DNA from: Candidatus Rokuibacteriota bacterium
GTDB taxonomy: Bacteria; Methylomirabilota; Methylomirabilia; Rokubacteriales; CSP1-6
DNA length: 48,815 bases
Direction of reading: 5' to 3'
NCBI GenBank assembly: GCA_023248995.1
Contig: JAHFDN010000022.1
Span: 1 to 48,815, forward strand
Shown here: positions 4,047 through 10,381 of the stretch, piece by piece
Layout of the letters: each line of letters begins with the position of its first letter
How positions within the stretch are numbered: the first letter of the stretch is position 1
Position numbers and translations under genes: made by a program
The notes under the pieces: model-generated
What the model was told of the DNA's origin: nothing
Seen by the model: the letters and a program-made list of their open reading frames with translations, nothing else
The model's database searches: none

Positions 4047-4397
4047 GTGATTACGCTCGAGTCGAAAGAGGTCCGCGAGCAGCTGAACCGGTGGATCGAG
4101 GACGGGCAGCAACAGCTGGCGGTCGTTCTCAGGGTCATGCAGGACTACGATCGCTTTCGCGAGTCGCTCGAGTCCTCCGAGCGCGAGAACGAGCGGCTGC
4201 GGGGGCTCGTCTACGAAAACGAGAAGCTCCACAACCGGCTCGAGACCGCTGAGAGGGAATGCGTGCTGCTCCGGGAGGAAGGGAACCGGCTCCGGGGCGA
4301 GACCGAGCGAAACACGAAAGAACGGGAGGAGATCGCCGACTGGCTCTCCAGCACCATCAACGAGGCTCTGTTGCGGCTCCGTCCCCAGCAGGCGTGA
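4047..4397 (+). CDS. Small coiled-coil protein of unknown function
   Basis: 116 residues, very rich in Glu, Arg and Leu. Residues about 30-100 look like one long amphipathic coiled coil (ERENERLRGL, ENEKLHNRLE, ERECVLLREEGNRLR). No signal peptide, no membrane segment and no catalytic motif is visible. Starts at GTG with AAAGGAG 10 bases upstream. The gene ends 10 bases before the selenoprotein candidate that follows, so the two are probably co-transcribed. I do not recognise a function; a structural or scaffolding role is only a guess. Confidence 0.75.
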   Translation: MITLESKEVREQLNRWIEDGQQQLAVVLRVMQDYDRFRESLESSERENERLRGLVYENEKLHNRLETAERECVLLREEGNRLRGETERNTKEREEIADWLSSTINEALLRLRPQQA

Positions 4398-4407
4398 GGC
4401 GGAAGGC

Positions 4408-5151
4408 GTGAAACGGGCGCGACTCTACTACCGCCCCGGCTGAACCTCCTGCGCCAAGACGAGAGAGTTGCTCTCGTCCTTCGGCGTGGAGGTCCTAGCC
4501 GTGAACGTGGAGGGGGATCCCGCGGCCCTCGCCGAGATGAAGCGCCTCGGCGCCCCCGTGGCGCCCGCCGTGGCCGTCGGCGATCGGGTCGTCCAGGGCT
4601 GGAACCCGAAGGCGGTAGCCGAGCTGGTCGGGGCCCGATACGTCGAGCCGCCGTGCCTCTCGCCCGAGGAGCTCGCCCGGCGCCTCGACACGATCCTCGC
4701 CGCCGCGGAGCGCGCCGTCCGTCAGGTCCCCGACGACCGGCTCGGGATGACGTCGCCCGATCGCGACCGGACCGTGCGCAACCTGGGCTACCATGTCTTT
4801 CGCCTGAGCCTGGCCTTCCGTGACGCCATGGTCGAGCGGCGGCTTCCCGAGGAATGGCTCCAGGAGGCGGCGCCGGCCGAGATCGCCGACGGCGCCGCGA
4901 TCGCGCGCTACGGCCAGACCGTCCGCGAGCGCCTCGCCGAGTGGTTCAGGCGACCCCAGGCCTCGGCAGGCGTGGTCGAGACGTACTACGGGCCGCAGAC
5001 GGGCCACGAGCTGCTCCTGCGCACCACCTGGCACGCCGCCCAGCACCTGCGCCAGCTGTACGCGCTGCTCGAGATGATGGGCGTTCGGCCCGAGCGCCCT
5101 CTGGGGGAGACGGACTTCGAGGGCCTGCCGCTTCCGGCGGCCCTCTGGTAG
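4408..5151 (+). CDS. Candidate selenoprotein: glutaredoxin-like domain (UxxC) fused to DinB-like domain
   Basis: Read from GTG at 4408 with TGA at 4441-4443 as selenocysteine: 247 residues, Sec at position 12. The N-terminus reads YYRPGUTSCAKTREL, matching the glutaredoxin active-site loop where the first redox residue is normally Cys (PGCxxC). The thioredoxin fold continues through GAPVAPAVAVGD (likely cis-Pro loop) and GWNP to about residue 80. Residues about 85-247 form a DinB/YfiT-like four-helix domain with the possible metal-binding His set LGYH and WHAAQH. Translation after the TGA stays in frame for 236 codons with good homology, so an ordinary stop is unlikely. The next in-frame start, a TTG at 4468, would remove the redox loop. 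A strong hairpin sits just after the TGA. A thiol/selenol redox role is inferred; the partner of the DinB part is unknown. Confidence 0.82.
4444..4493 (+). promoter_or_regulatory. SECIS-like hairpin after the TGA of the glutaredoxin-DinB gene
   Basis: Three stacked helices by eye: ACCTCC (4444-4449) with GGAGGT (4488-4493); CGCC (4452-4455) with GGCG (4483-4486); GACGAGAG (4458-4465) with CTCTCGTC (4471-4478). The apical loop is AGTTG (4466-4470), 22 bases after the TGA, with a G among its first two bases and a GU step. These fit the published description of bacterial SECIS elements (loop about 16-37 bases downstream, G in the first two loop positions). The hairpin lies within coding sequence, as bacterial SECIS elements do. 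Confidence 0.75.
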
Positions 5152-5327: not shown

Positions 5328-6005
5328 CTAGGCGCGGACGACGCGGAGGGAGTAGTCCGAGTAGCGGAGTTTGGGCGGGATGCTCGAGCGGTGGGCCACA
5401 GTGCTCCACGGGATCTGGTGCCGCCAGGCGCCGCCGCGGGAGACGCGCCGCGTTCCCGCCAGCGGGCCGCGCGGGTTCACCATGGGGGAGGCGAGGTAGT
5501 ACCCCTCCTCGTACCAGTCGATGCACCACTCGTGGCAGGAGCCCGAGAGGTCGGTGAGGCCGTAGCCGTTCGGGCGGCCCCAGCCGACCTTCGGGGGCCC
5601 GGTCAGGGGCAGCGCGACGCCGGGGAAAACCGTGTCGGGCTTGACGTCCCCCCACGGGTAGCGGGAGCCGTCGAGGCCGCCGCGCGCGGCCTTTTCCCAT
5701 TCGGCCTCCGTGGGGATCCGGTGGGTCTCTCCCGTCGTCACCGTGAGCCACTCGCAGTAGGCGACCGCCTCGAGCCAGTTGACTCCCACCACCGGCTGCT
5801 GCGGGTCGTTGAAGCGGGGGTTGTCCCAGAGGGGCGGGGGCGCCACGTGCGTGGCATCCACGAAGCGGGCGTACTCGGCGTTGACGACCGGCGTCCGGGC
5901 GATGAAGAAGCCGTCCACCCGGACCGGATGGCGCGGTCCCTCCCCCGGCAGGCCGTCCTCCCACCCCATCCAGAACTTGCCGGCGGGAATCTCCACGAAC
6001 TCCAC
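5328..6005 (-). CDS. SUMF1/FGE-sulfatase-domain protein (not a classical formylglycine enzyme)
   Basis: 225 residues from GTG at 6005. The sulfatase-modifying-factor fold is recognisable: EIPAGKFWMGWEDG, RHPVRVDGFFIARTPV, NAEYARFVDAT, QPVVGVNWLEAVAYCEWL, RIPTEAEWEKAARGG, YPWGD, NGYGLTDLSGSCHEW and VSRGGAWRH. The paired active-site Cys of true formylglycine-generating enzymes, expected after GGAW, are absent (QIPWSTVAHRSS), so another role is likely; EgtB-type and ergothioneine-related proteins and many orphan SUMF1 proteins share this fold. Frame extends further upstream, but homology starts at VEFVEIPAG, and the divergent aminotransferase begins 39 bases away. Confidence 0.85.
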   Translation of the reverse strand: MEFVEIPAGKFWMGWEDGLPGEGPRHPVRVDGFFIARTPVVNAEYARFVDATHVAPPPLWDNPRFNDPQQPVVGVNWLEAVAYCEWLTVTTGETHRIPTEAEWEKAARGGLDGSRYPWGDVKPDTVFPGVALPLTGPPKVGWGRPNGYGLTDLSGSCHEWCIDWYEEGYYLASPMVNPRGPLAGTRRVSRGGAWRHQIPWSTVAHRSSIPPKLRYSDYSLRVVRA

Positions 6006-6014
6006 TGAGCCTAG

Positions 6015-7220: not shown

Positions 7221-7744
7221 TGCCGACGGTCCCCCCGCCGCTGGCCCCGCCGGATCCTCGGACGCTCGACCGGGCCGCCGACCTCCTCCGGGTGGCGTCC
7301 CGCCCCGTCGTGATCGCCGGTGCCCAGTGCCGGCTTGCCGAGGACGGCGCGTGGCTCCGCGCCCTGGCCGAGGCGCTGCCGGTCCCGGTGCTGACCGCCT
7401 GGCGCGCCCGGGGCGTCCTGCTGGAGGGGCATCCACTCGATCTGGGGCTCTTGACGGCAAGCCCCGAGGACGACGGGCTGCTCGGGCTGGCGGACCTGAT
7501 CCTCCTATGCGGTCTGGACGAGGAGGAGCTGGCCGTGAGCCGCTGGCCGTACTCGGCGCTCGTCGTGTGCCTCTCCCGGACGAGGCACGGTGAGCATCCT
7601 GTCGCGCCGCTCGTGGAAGTCGTGGGAGACCTGGCGCTGATCCTGGCGGAGCTGGCGCCGCGGCTCACGGGGCGGACCCAGGTTGACTGGGACATGTTCG
7701 AGCTCGATCGCCTCAAGAAGATGCGTCGCTCGGTGCGGGGATGA
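7220..7744 (+). CDS. Stand-alone thiamine-pyrophosphate-enzyme middle domain
   Basis: 174 residues resembling only the central (TPP_enzyme_M, nucleotide-binding Rossmann-like) domain of acetolactate synthase and relatives: RPVVIAGAQCRLA, ALPVPVLTAWRARGVLLEGHP and LGLADLILLCGLDEEEL. The flanking pyrimidine- and pyrophosphate-binding domains of these enzymes (about 550 residues in total) are missing, and no remnants are visible in the genes on either side, so TPP catalysis is not expected. It overlaps the aminotransferase and YedE genes by ATGA on both sides, so translation is coupled and the gene is probably functional rather than debris. Role unknown; ligand or nucleotide binding is an inference. 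Confidence 0.68.
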   Translation: MPTVPPPLAPPDPRTLDRAADLLRVASRPVVIAGAQCRLAEDGAWLRALAEALPVPVLTAWRARGVLLEGHPLDLGLLTASPEDDGLLGLADLILLCGLDEEELAVSRWPYSALVVCLSRTRHGEHPVAPLVEVVGDLALILAELAPRLTGRTQVDWDMFELDRLKKMRRSVRG

Positions 7745-8244
7745 AGCCCTACTGGTCTCCGTACGCGGTGGGGGTCGGACTCGGCCTGACCCTCCTGACC
7801 ACGTATGTCCTGATGGGCTTTGGCCTCGGCGCCTCGGGGGCGTTCACCCACGTCGCGGCCCACCTCGAGGGCGCCGTCTCCCCCGCGCGCGCTCAGGCGA
7901 ACTCCTACATCGCCGGGTACCTGGAGGCCGGACGGCTGTGGGCCCAGTGGGTGGTGGTGGAGATGGCCGGCGTCGTCGTGGGCGGCTTCCTCGGGGCGTG
8001 GTCGGCCGGCCGGCTCGGGTGGCGGTTCGAGAAGGGCAGCCGCATCGGCTGGGGGCGCCGCCTGCTCTTTGCCTTTGTCGGCGGAGCGACCGTCGGGTTC
8101 GCGAGCCGCGTGGCCCAGGGGTGCACCAGCGGGCTCGCGCTCTCCGGGAGCGCCGTGCTGTCCCCGGGGGCGTGGGCGTTCACGCTCGCGTTCATGACCG
8201 GCGGCTTCGTGACCGCGCGGATCGTGAGGAGGGCCTGGCGATGA
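7741..8244 (+). CDS. YeeE/YedE family transporter, N-terminal half
   Basis: 167 residues, inner-membrane protein with about four hydrophobic helices. It matches the first half of the YeeE/YedE (sulfur transport, DUF395) family, including AGYLEAGRLWAQWVVVEMAGVVVGGF and the family motif RVAQGCTSGLALSGSAVLS, where GCTSG carries the conserved Cys of the transport path. The family takes up thiosulfate (TsuA) and has been proposed as a selenium transporter by comparative genomics. Here the protein is split: the second half is the next gene, overlapping by ATGA. The two halves presumably assemble into one channel. Confidence 0.88.
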   Translation: MKPYWSPYAVGVGLGLTLLTTYVLMGFGLGASGAFTHVAAHLEGAVSPARAQANSYIAGYLEAGRLWAQWVVVEMAGVVVGGFLGAWSAGRLGWRFEKGSRIGWGRRLLFAFVGGATVGFASRVAQGCTSGLALSGSAVLSPGAWAFTLAFMTGGFVTARIVRRAWR

Positions 8245-8822
8245 GCTGGCCGCTCAGCCTGGAAGGTCCGCCCGCGCTCCTGGCCGGGCTCGGGCTGGGG
8301 GTGGCTTTCGGGTTCTTGCTCGAGCGCGGAGGCCTCGGGGATCCGAAGAAGCTCCTCGGGCTCTTCTACCTGGAGGACTTCACGATGTTCAAAGTCATGT
8401 TCGCCGCCATCGCGACGGCGGCCGCCGGGATCGGCGGACTCTCGGCGCTCGGCCTGATGGACCTCGGCGCGTTGGCGATCCAACCGACCTACCTCTGGCC
8501 GATGATCGTCGGCGGGCTGGTTCTCGGCGCCGGGTTCGCTCTCGGCGGTTACTGACCCGGCTCTTCGGCCGTGGGTGCGGCCTCGGGGCGGGTGGACGCG
8601 CTGGTGTTCATGGGGGGGCTCGTCGCGGGCATCTGGGTCTTCGCCGAGGTGTACGCGTGGCTGGCGGGCTTTACCTCGAGCGGTGAGATGGGCACGGCCA
8701 CGCTGGCCGAGTTGCTGGGGATCCCGTTCTGGCTGCTCGCCGGCCTGGTGGTGCTGATGGCGGTCGCCATGTTCCGGCTGATCCGGAAACTCGAGCGCCC
8801 TGTGCCGGGAGGAAAGGCGTGA
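8241..8822 (+). CDS. Candidate selenoprotein: YeeE/YedE transporter, C-terminal half with Sec in GGYUPG
   Basis: Read from ATG at 8241 with TGA at 8553-8555 as Sec: 193 residues, Sec at 105. The segment reads ALGGYUPGSSAVGAASGR; the family motif here is GGYCPGTSxVGAAtGR, so the TGA replaces the conserved Cys. Before the TGA are helices and LERGGLGDPKKLLGLFYL typical of the family; after it, in the same frame, are VDALVFMGGLVAGIWVFAEVY and a final helix. Without readthrough the protein would end at the most conserved motif. The start overlaps the preceding half, and the stop overlaps the rhodanese GTG. Sulfur or selenium import is inferred from family and neighbours. Confidence 0.82.
8556..8587 (+). 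promoter_or_regulatory. Possible SECIS-like hairpin after the YedE TGA
   Basis: CCCG (8556-8559) can pair with CGGG (8584-8587), and GGCCG (8567-8571) with CGGCC (8578-8582). The apical loop is TGGGTG (8572-8577), 16 bases after the TGA, with a G in its second position. There is a 7-to-1 internal asymmetry. It fits bacterial SECIS geometry, but GC-rich sequence folds easily, so support is moderate. Confidence 0.45.
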
Positions 8823-9697
8823 AACGGACGTGGATCGGACTCGTTGTCAGCCTCGTGGCGCTCCTTGTCGGGGCGCCGGTGGCCCTCGCCCAGGAGAGCC
8901 GGATCCTGGTCGACGCGGCCTGGCTCAATGCCCGACTGGGGACGCCCGGGCTCCGCGTCGTGGACATGGCCACCGAGCCGGGGGACTACGCCAAGGGGCA
9001 CATCCCGGGGGCCGTCTATCTGAACGTCAACGACTCCCGGATCGCGGTGCCCGCCGGCGGATTCCGTCTGCCCACCGCCGAGGAAGGAGCGAAGCTCCTG
9101 GGCGGGCTGGGCATCACACCGGAGACCATGGTCGTGGTCTACGACGACATGGGCGGCCTCAACGCCTCGCGATTGTTCTTCACCCTGGATGTCTTCGGCC
9201 ACTCGAAGGTGGCGATCCTGGACGGGGGGATCCATGCCTGGCGCCGCGGGGGCCTGCCGGTCGGCATGGAGGCGTCGAGCGCGACGCCGACGGTCTCCCG
9301 GCCCGCGCTCCGTCCCGAGCGTGTGGCGAGCGCCGAGTGGGTCCTGGAGCGCCTCAAGGATCCCACGGTCGTGGTGGTGGACGCCCGCAGCCCGGCCGAG
9401 TACGCGGGCACGGATGTCCGGGCCATGCGCGGGGGCCGCATCCCGGGTGCCGTGAACATCGAGTGGAACCAGAACCTCCGCCCCGACTGGACATTCAAGC
9501 CGATCCCGGAGCTCCGCGCCATGTACCTGGCGAAGGGCGTGACTCCTGACAGGACGGTGGTCACCTACTGCCAGACGCATCATCGCGCCGCGCACACCTA
9601 CTTTGTGCTCCGGCTCCTCGGGTATCCGCGCGTCGTGGGGTACGATCGCTCCTGGGCGGAGTGGGGCAATCGAGCCGATCTACCCGTCGAAAAATAA
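8819..9697 (+). CDS. Exported thiosulfate/3-mercaptopyruvate sulfurtransferase (tandem rhodanese)
   Basis: 292 residues. The first 24 form a Sec-type signal peptide (KRTWIGLVVSLVALLVG...ALAQ), so it acts in the periplasm. Two rhodanese domains follow: an inactive first copy (VDMATEPGDYAKGHIPGAVYL) and a catalytic second copy (VVVDARSPAEYAGTDV, then active-site loop YCQTHHRAAHTYF with the persulfide-forming Cys). It starts at GTG overlapping the YedE stop, after GGGAGGAAAGG. Sulfane sulfur chemistry outside the membrane next to a YedE channel suggests that the enzyme supplies or processes the transported sulfur (or selenium) species; that link is inferred. Confidence 0.93.
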   Translation: MKRTWIGLVVSLVALLVGAPVALAQESRILVDAAWLNARLGTPGLRVVDMATEPGDYAKGHIPGAVYLNVNDSRIAVPAGGFRLPTAEEGAKLLGGLGITPETMVVVYDDMGGLNASRLFFTLDVFGHSKVAILDGGIHAWRRGGLPVGMEASSATPTVSRPALRPERVASAEWVLERLKDPTVVVVDARSPAEYAGTDVRAMRGGRIPGAVNIEWNQNLRPDWTFKPIPELRAMYLAKGVTPDRTVVTYCQTHHRAAHTYFVLRLLGYPRVVGYDRSWAEWGNRADLPVEK

Positions 9698-9724: not shown

Positions 9725-10381
9725 ATGATTCTCTCCGAGAAGGACCGCGAAGCCGTCAAGAAAGAGTTCGAAAAACTCGCCGATCCGGTGAAGGTCACCG
9801 TGTTCTCCCAGGAGCTCGGCTCCGAGACCTGTCAGCAGACGGAGCGGCTCGTGCGGGAGGTCGTCCTGCTCACCGACAAGGCCTCGATGGAGGTCTTGAA
9901 CCTGGTCCTCGACCGCGAAAAGGCCAACGCCTACGGCGTGGATCGCGTTCCTGCCGTGGTGGTCGAGGGCGCCAAGGACTACGGGATCCGGTTCTTCGGC
10001 CTCCCGGCGGGCTACGAGTTCACAAACCTCGTTGACGCCATCGTCGTGGCCTCGACGGGCAAGCCGGCGCTCTCCCAGGAAACCCAGGCCGCCCTCGCGG
10101 GGCTCAGGTCCCCGGTCCACATCAAGGTCTTCGCCACGCCCACCTGACCCTACTGCCCCCGGGCCGTGCGCCTGGCTCAGCACATGGCGGTCGCGTCGGA
10201 CCAGATCCGCGCCGATTGCATCGAGGCGAACGAGTTTCCCGAGTGGAGCCAGCAGTACCGAGTGATGGCGGTGCCCAAAGTGGTCATTAACGACCGCGTG
10301 CAGTTCGAAGGCGCCCTGCCGGAGCGGGATTTCCTGAGCGCGGTGCTGCGGGCCGTCAACGGCGGAGGGACCCTTGGTTAA
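9725..10381 (+). CDS. Candidate selenoprotein: tandem thioredoxin-fold protein (AhpF N-terminal/PDO-like) with UPYC
   Basis: Read from ATG at 9725 with TGA at 10145-10147 as Sec: 218 residues, Sec at 141. Two thioredoxin/glutaredoxin folds as in the AhpF N-terminal domain and archaeal protein disulfide oxidoreductase. The first fold has VTVFSQELGSETCQQTERL and cis-Pro VPAVVVEG; its redox motif is degenerate with a single Cys. The second has HIKVFATPTUPYCPRAVRLA, where CPYC is standard, and cis-Pro AVPKVVIND. The frame continues 77 codons past the TGA with full homology, so ordinary termination would destroy the active site. Thiol-disulfide reductase activity, perhaps electron delivery to a peroxidase, is inferred. 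AhpF-N homologues with Sec are an established selenoprotein class from metagenomes. Confidence 0.87.
10153..10180 (+). promoter_or_regulatory. Possible SECIS-like hairpin after the UPYC TGA
   Basis: CTG (10153-10155) can pair with CAG (10178-10180), and GGCC (10162-10165) with GGCT (10174-10177, one G-U). The loop is GTGCGCCT (10166-10173), 18 bases after the TGA, starting with G. An asymmetric 5' bulge resembles the YedE hairpin. Distance and loop fit SECIS rules; stability is modest. Confidence 0.4.

Follow-up and report, generated by a model that had tools for sequence, protein, structure and literature searches.

A predicted selenocysteine-containing glutaredoxin-DinB fusion protein from Rokubacteria and other bacteria

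We analysed a 48,815-nucleotide stretch of DNA (the window; contig C56) from a 2.34 Mb Rokubacteria/Methylomirabilota MAG that is 97% complete. On its forward strand, one frame runs from GTG 4408 to TAG 5149-5151 through an in-frame TGA at 4441-4443, and the frame counts 236 codons from this TGA onward. The codons at the site are CGC CCC GGC TGA ACC TCC TGC. With TGA read as selenocysteine (Sec), the N-terminus is VKRARLYYRPGUTSCAKTRELL..., which places the TGA in the motif RPGUTSC of a glutaredoxin domain. The features of the locus are as follows.

4047..4397, + strand: ORF for a 116-residue coiled-coil protein; its TGA stop lies 10 nt upstream of the next gene's GTG
4408..5151, + strand: predicted Sec-type glutaredoxin-DinB fusion gene, GTG start, 247 residues plus stop
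4408..4638, + strand: glutaredoxin/NrdH-like domain, residues 1-77, with candidate cis-Pro P53 and an NrdH-like (Q/H)GWNP segment
4441..4443, + strand: TGA read as selenocysteine by comparison with homologues, residue 12, in a UxxC motif with partner Cys15
4458..4478, + strand: SECIS-like upper stem of 8 bp (4458-4465/4471-4478) with apical loop AGUUG (4466-4470)
4663..5148, + strand: DinB/YfiT (S-transferase-like) domain, residues 86-247, with H129, H209 and H213 as predicted metal site
5331-6014, - strand: FGE-sulfatase-domain gene (E 7.5e-45) beside a class I/II aminotransferase gene

The upstream coiled-coil ORF is possibly co-transcribed with the fusion gene; it matched no family, and its match to Rab11-FIP3 was sub-threshold.

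The Pfam glutaredoxin model (PF00462) matched residues 6-62 (E 6e-11; 42.8 bits, cut-off 22.9), and the domain has the UxxC motif and, at P53, the (V/T)P typical of glutaredoxins. DinB_2 matched residues 93-217 (E 6e-5) at 23.9 bits, slightly under its gathering cut-off of 24.8, and matched 53/55 homologues at E<=0.01. An AlphaFold2 model built with 55 homologues reached a pLDDT of 93.0 and a pTM of 0.87. Searched against the PDB with Foldseek, this model found YfiT best (1rxq, E 1.4e-4), followed by other DinB folds including DR0053 (6iz2, TMt 0.81), and its N-terminal part aligned with NrdH (1h75) and other redoxins. The redoxin domain was closest to the YruB/NrdH types by profile and sequence comparison. 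Foldseek also returned long but poor alignments to glutathione S-transferases (TM ~0.3), which most likely stem from the common order of a thioredoxin fold followed by a helical domain rather than from homologous second domains. Plasmids from Roseomonas, Variovorax, Caballeronia and Rhizobium also carry forms with Cys at the TGA position. In four of these plasmid copies the whole fusion is one CDS, named either 'DinB family protein' or 'glutaredoxin domain-containing protein', so the fusion is real and already in databases, though not recognised there as a family. Pfam, Foldseek and these single-CDS homologues bear out the fusion that an earlier note, made from the letters of the window, had proposed.

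Residues G11, U/C12, S14, C15, E20 and P53 in the N-terminal domain were invariant in 55/55 divergent homologues, as were R121, L126, H129, F131, R205, T206, W208, H209, Q212, H213, R215, L240, P241 and P243 in the DinB part. The STL enzymes of B. subtilis are metal-dependent thiol transferases in which three His, the triad of BstA/YfiT, are the sole fully conserved residues, the last two spaced H-x3-H (PMC5815605). H129 and H209-x3-H213 have the same spacing as the His of these enzymes, and we predict that they form a His3 metal site.

A homologue was present in 52/148 related genomes. All copies of this clade that cover the site have TGA in GUxxC and none has Cys; this count leaves out L073, a short Grx-like selenoprotein gene encoding a different protein. 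We extended the scan to 84,980 species genomes, which gave 169 loci, and scored the best 80 of these: 68 had TGA, 11 had Cys (TGC or TGT) and 1 was unscoreable. The 11 Cys forms among these best 80 read PGCSSC or PGCTSC and are full length through the DinB domain. These loci, with full-length homologues in several phyla, came from Rokubacteria/Methylomirabilota, Tectimicrobiota (Entotheonella), SAR324 and Alphaproteobacteria, and from MAGs whose possibly mistaken labels are Acidobacteriota, Nitrospinota and Chloroflexota. The Sec form occurs in three named strains that are not MAGs: Vineibacter terrae CC-CFT640 (L154), Rhodospirillaceae SYSU D60007 (L160) and Desertibaculum subflavum SYSU D60015 (L164). 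Of 399 genomes drawn from the phylum to which Vineibacter belongs, only 2 were carriers, which makes this a rare gene in Pseudomonadota as a whole. In genus g20 of the Rokubacteria we observed stand-alone DinB paralogues of ~176 aa (L074, L075, L076, L079) that have no glutaredoxin domain and share 49-55% identity with the C-terminal part of the fusion; the same genomes also hold the fusion.

These comparisons bear directly on the reading of the TGA. The earlier note had placed it at the first redox Cys and had called the following 236 codons open and homologous. The coordinates are right, aligned homologues have TGA or Cys at the site, and full-length homologues were found. Cys homologues, which the note suggested aligning around residue 12, were found at 11 genome loci and in 6 plasmid copies, all with GC(S/T)SC at the TGA column. 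A read-level error at 4441-4443, which the note had named as a possible flaw, is excluded because the same TGA occurs in many independent genome records. We also considered that the UGA is a true stop, with the gene either starting at TTG 4468 and encoding the rest of the fold or decaying as a pseudogene. A mechanical ORF list does give TTG 4468-5151 (227 aa), as an annotation pipeline would call it. Such an ORF would lose the first strand and the active site of the glutaredoxin domain. Conservation also extends to R9, P10 and G11, which precede the UGA; the TGA is shared by every clade copy, and Cys stands at the site where selB is missing. A true stop is therefore very improbable. Pseudogene and two-gene readings were rejected on conservation and on the Cys/Sec pairing.

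The machinery for Sec insertion, which the earlier note had proposed looking for, was complete in the genome that holds the window:

C51:42802-44682: selB (380 bits)
C51:44713-46083: selA (593 bits)
C51:47447-47540: tRNA-Sec (70.9 bits; ARAGORN anticodon TCA), near selA and selB
G000:C22:271492-272433, - strand: selD (L010; 347 bits)

The selD gene is itself of the Sec form, with one in-frame TGA in its N-terminal region (AG-U-ASKMGPGE). Among 45 related genomes, selB matched in 44/45 at E<=1e-30 and in 42/45 over the cut-off, independent of whether the fusion gene was present or absent. Across fusion carriers, selB was found in 32/32 tested Sec-form genomes vs 1/11 Cys-form genomes (Fisher p 6e-9). 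In a tree of the best 80 of 169 loci, the alphaproteobacterial clade comprised 19 Sec and 11 Cys forms and the remainder 49 Sec forms. Two Sec-Cys changes suffice to explain this tree, and 10/11 Cys forms fall within one clade, so the Sec/Cys and selB counts are phylogenetically non-independent; despite this, their direction is that predicted for a selenoprotein. The sole Cys-form genome with selB (L140 / G148) is possibly a snapshot of a Sec-to-Cys change that precedes loss of the Sec trait.

Another reading is that UGA is decoded as Trp or some other residue, owing to an altered genetic code or to general suppression; like any read-through, this would leave the frame open. However, TGA ends ordinary frames here (e.g. 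the upstream ORF, at TGA 4395-4397), the genome has SelB and a tRNA-Sec whose anticodon is TCA, and homologues have Cys at the aligned position, never Trp. We give a code change hardly any credence, and UGA-to-Trp reassignment was discarded on the TGA stops, the Sec machinery and the Cys homologues.

We then examined the hairpin downstream of the TGA. The bacterial SECIS model allows a loop of 3-9 nt, an upper stem of 4-16 bp, a G at loop position 1 or 2, a distance of 16-37 nt from the UGA and an MFE <= -7.5 (PMC13188914). The hairpin at the locus, GACGAGAG-AGUUG-CUCUCGUC, lies 22 nt past the UGA and falls within every constraint (loop 5 nt, stem 8 bp, upper stem alone -12.6 kcal/mol). The region 4438-4500 folded at -37.7 kcal/mol (z -4.65 vs dinucleotide shuffles). 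The earlier note had reported the apical loop AGTTG 22 bases past the TGA, and both its position and its sequence held. It had also described a three-helix hairpin starting one base after the TGA; the hairpin is strong, but pairing begins directly after the TGA. Across the family, conservation is limited to the upper stem of 8 bp plus two C-G pairs, and the long lower helices are confined to the window copy and its closest kin.

Coding constraint was controlled for by synonymous recoding. The window copy was more stable than 99% of recodings (z -2.84), and 51/51 related copies were more stable than their own mean recoding (mean z -1.68), which argues that the window hairpin is not due to chance. 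In an alignment of 34 distinct copies, pairing was kept in 91.5% of stem cells and 4 pairs showed double changes; the covariation score was reached by 0/500 shuffles, and sliding the partners destroyed the covariation. Sec copies formed 6.8/8 stem pairs vs 5.05 expected, and Cys copies, a natural control, 2.7/8 vs 3.05 expected; the Cys forms lack the hairpin. In alphaproteobacterial Sec copies the hairpin was weaker, in a different register and with little excess stability (mean z -0.23). Machinery, conserved TGA, Cys homologues and SECIS constraints all agree with the Sec insertion proposed in the earlier note. On these comparative grounds, TGA 4441 is almost certainly a selenocysteine codon and the protein a selenoprotein.

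The short Grx-like protein of L073 (G070:C118) has its TGA at the same place (QPGUAACDHEKEFLSQ), and the hairpin near AAAGAGUUUCUUU closely resembles that of the fusion gene. It looks like a separate small selenoprotein that shares SECIS features.

We next assessed the gene neighbourhood. No conserved operon or neighbour across phyla was found around the fusion loci examined. One set of Cys copies lies beside isochorismatase and AtzG-like/amidase genes, and another beside a TTT transporter, SDR and TauD dioxygenase. An FGE-domain gene lies downstream, within ~5 kb and on the opposite strand, in ~25 Rokubacteria loci. EgtB joins DinB_2 and FGE domains; PMC5815605 covers its DinB part. The fusion could be half of a split EgtB-like enzyme of the sulfoxide-synthase type, paired with the separate FGE-sulfatase-domain protein, as the nearby gene at 5331-6014 might suggest. 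This is improbable: the two genes lie on opposite strands, separated by a variable distance and by varying genes, and the FGE gene is absent beside every non-Rokubacteria copy examined. Its proximity may be plain local synteny.

Small-thiol synthesis genes were searched for by family. BshC was found neither in the window genome (G000) nor in the relatives tested, and was present in 2/43 genomes; neither type of GshA was found in the window genome or its kin. In the window genome, MshC gave matches of ~300 bits, none over the cut-off. Such matches occurred in all 14 control genomes, below the cut-off in all but one, as expected for cysteinyl-tRNA synthetase. Bacillithiol, mycothiol and glutathione were rejected as partners in the window organism, since no synthesis genes of the families searched were found. 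Alphaproteobacterial carriers have GCS2. With BshC absent from the window genome and its kin, the bacillithiol-like role raised in the earlier note was not borne out; the thiol-linked detoxification it also raised is plausible.

The following mechanism is proposed. SelB and tRNA-Sec(UCA) would decode UGA 4441 as Sec, directed by the adjacent downstream hairpin. The product would be a 247-aa two-domain enzyme with an N-terminal NrdH/glutaredoxin-type U-x-x-C and a C-terminal DinB/YfiT four-helix His3 domain. Metal in the DinB domain would activate an electrophilic substrate or a thiolate, Sec12 would attack the substrate or the resulting adduct or disulfide, and Cys15 would resolve the selenenylsulfide. 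A thioredoxin-type reductase may then regenerate the Sec12-Cys15 pair; we propose it because the window organism has no known low-molecular-weight thiol route. Glutathione could participate in alphaproteobacteria. The net activity would be thiol/selenol transfer, or a reductive detoxification or catabolic step. We infer the metal in the DinB site, the Sec12-Cys15 redox pair and the coupling of the two.

The selenoprotein could instead be a plain protein-disulfide or peroxide reductase, with the glutaredoxin domain as its catalytic part and the DinB domain serving only for docking or metal storage. Sec redoxins are usually disulfide reductases and the best matches are NrdH-like. Against this, neither H129, H209 and H213 nor R205, T206, W208 and Q212 vary in members ranging from Rokubacteria to Alphaproteobacteria, which suggests catalysis over docking, and Cys forms lie in catabolic-looking gene sets. 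We regard the plain reductase as possible but unlikely. We favour a transferase or reductive detoxification enzyme over a redoxin with a docking domain because the metal site is invariant and several Cys copies lie beside catabolic-looking genes. Assignment to the metal-dependent thiol-transferase/reductase class is tentative, a little short of an even chance; some DinB proteins have other activities, which counts against a thiol-transferase mechanism. The explanation as a whole, a Sec glutaredoxin-DinB protein acting as a metal-dependent thiol-transferase/reductase, is likely when its parts are blended. It is doubtful that the tethered Sec-Cys redoxin replaces the small-molecule thiol of DinB/STL enzymes, giving a transferase that carries its own thiol. 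If it did, substrate activation by the metal and the selenol nucleophile would be combined in one chain, in bacteria that lack genes for glutathione, bacillithiol and mycothiol.

The fusion differs from each known system that we compared. NrdH is reduced by thioredoxin reductase. The E. coli protein (1h75) is similar in fold and sequence, but the window protein scores under the NrdH cut-off, has Sec for Cys and is fused to DinB. The Sec glutaredoxin of Clostridium oremlandii (PF00462) shares the fold and U-x-x-C, and Cys homologues exist (PMC13188914). Known Sec glutaredoxins are listed as small proteins, whereas the window protein is NrdH/YruB-like and fused to DinB, in an organism that has neither tested type of GSH synthesis gene. 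The bacillithiol transferases BstA-H (STL) share the DinB fold and the three-His H-x3-H metal site (predicted here); unlike them, the window protein is fused to a selenocysteine redoxin, in a genome without BshC. UXX-star and HUGP-GUXX-star (NF041212, NF045501) are also glutaredoxin-like Sec domains, one of them a fusion, but the window protein retains the resolving Cys and carries DinB. Its profile similarity to them is weak, far under the curated cut-offs (28 bits vs 66 for NF041212, 20 vs 325 for NF045501), and it also scored under those of further UXX-star-family models (19 bits vs 100 and 23 vs 97).

Sec glutaredoxins, which have been studied experimentally, and DinB/STL transferases are already known separately. 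What is new here, as predicted from sequence, is a selenoprotein family defined by its domain architecture, which occurs in several bacterial phyla with the Sec form predominating. No glutaredoxin-DinB selenoprotein model was found in Pfam or in NCBIfam (June 2026), and no NCBIfam model scored above its cut-off. DinB is absent from a 2026 selenoproteome review (PMC13188914), and a literature search of incomplete coverage found no paper on a selenoprotein with DinB or on DinB, glutaredoxin and domain fusion. Annotation based on stops truncates or misses Sec-form genes of this kind. In the predicted protein a selenol redox centre is combined with a metal-dependent thiol-transferase fold, and this in organisms without a recognised small thiol, so the question of glutathione replacement becomes testable. 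Because named Sec-form strains exist, wet-lab tests need no uncultured Rokubacteria.

Two further candidate selenoproteins were observed in the window. A sulfur-related run at 7741-9697 (+) contains two Sulf_transp (YeeE) pieces and a two-domain rhodanese, and directly precedes the second Grx-like selenoprotein gene. An in-frame TGA at 8553-8555 (+) lies in a sulfur transport protein of the YeeE/YedE type (...LGGY-U-PGSS), at a site where the usual motif is GGYCPGTS. This is likely the second selenoprotein of the window, and its family is on the published list. The third, also likely, is of a known family type: ORF 9725-10147 ends at an in-frame TGA at 10145-10147 (+) in the motif ATPT-U-PYC, and its frame continues to about 10382, giving a two-domain Grx-like protein that resembles the AhpF N-terminal homologue.
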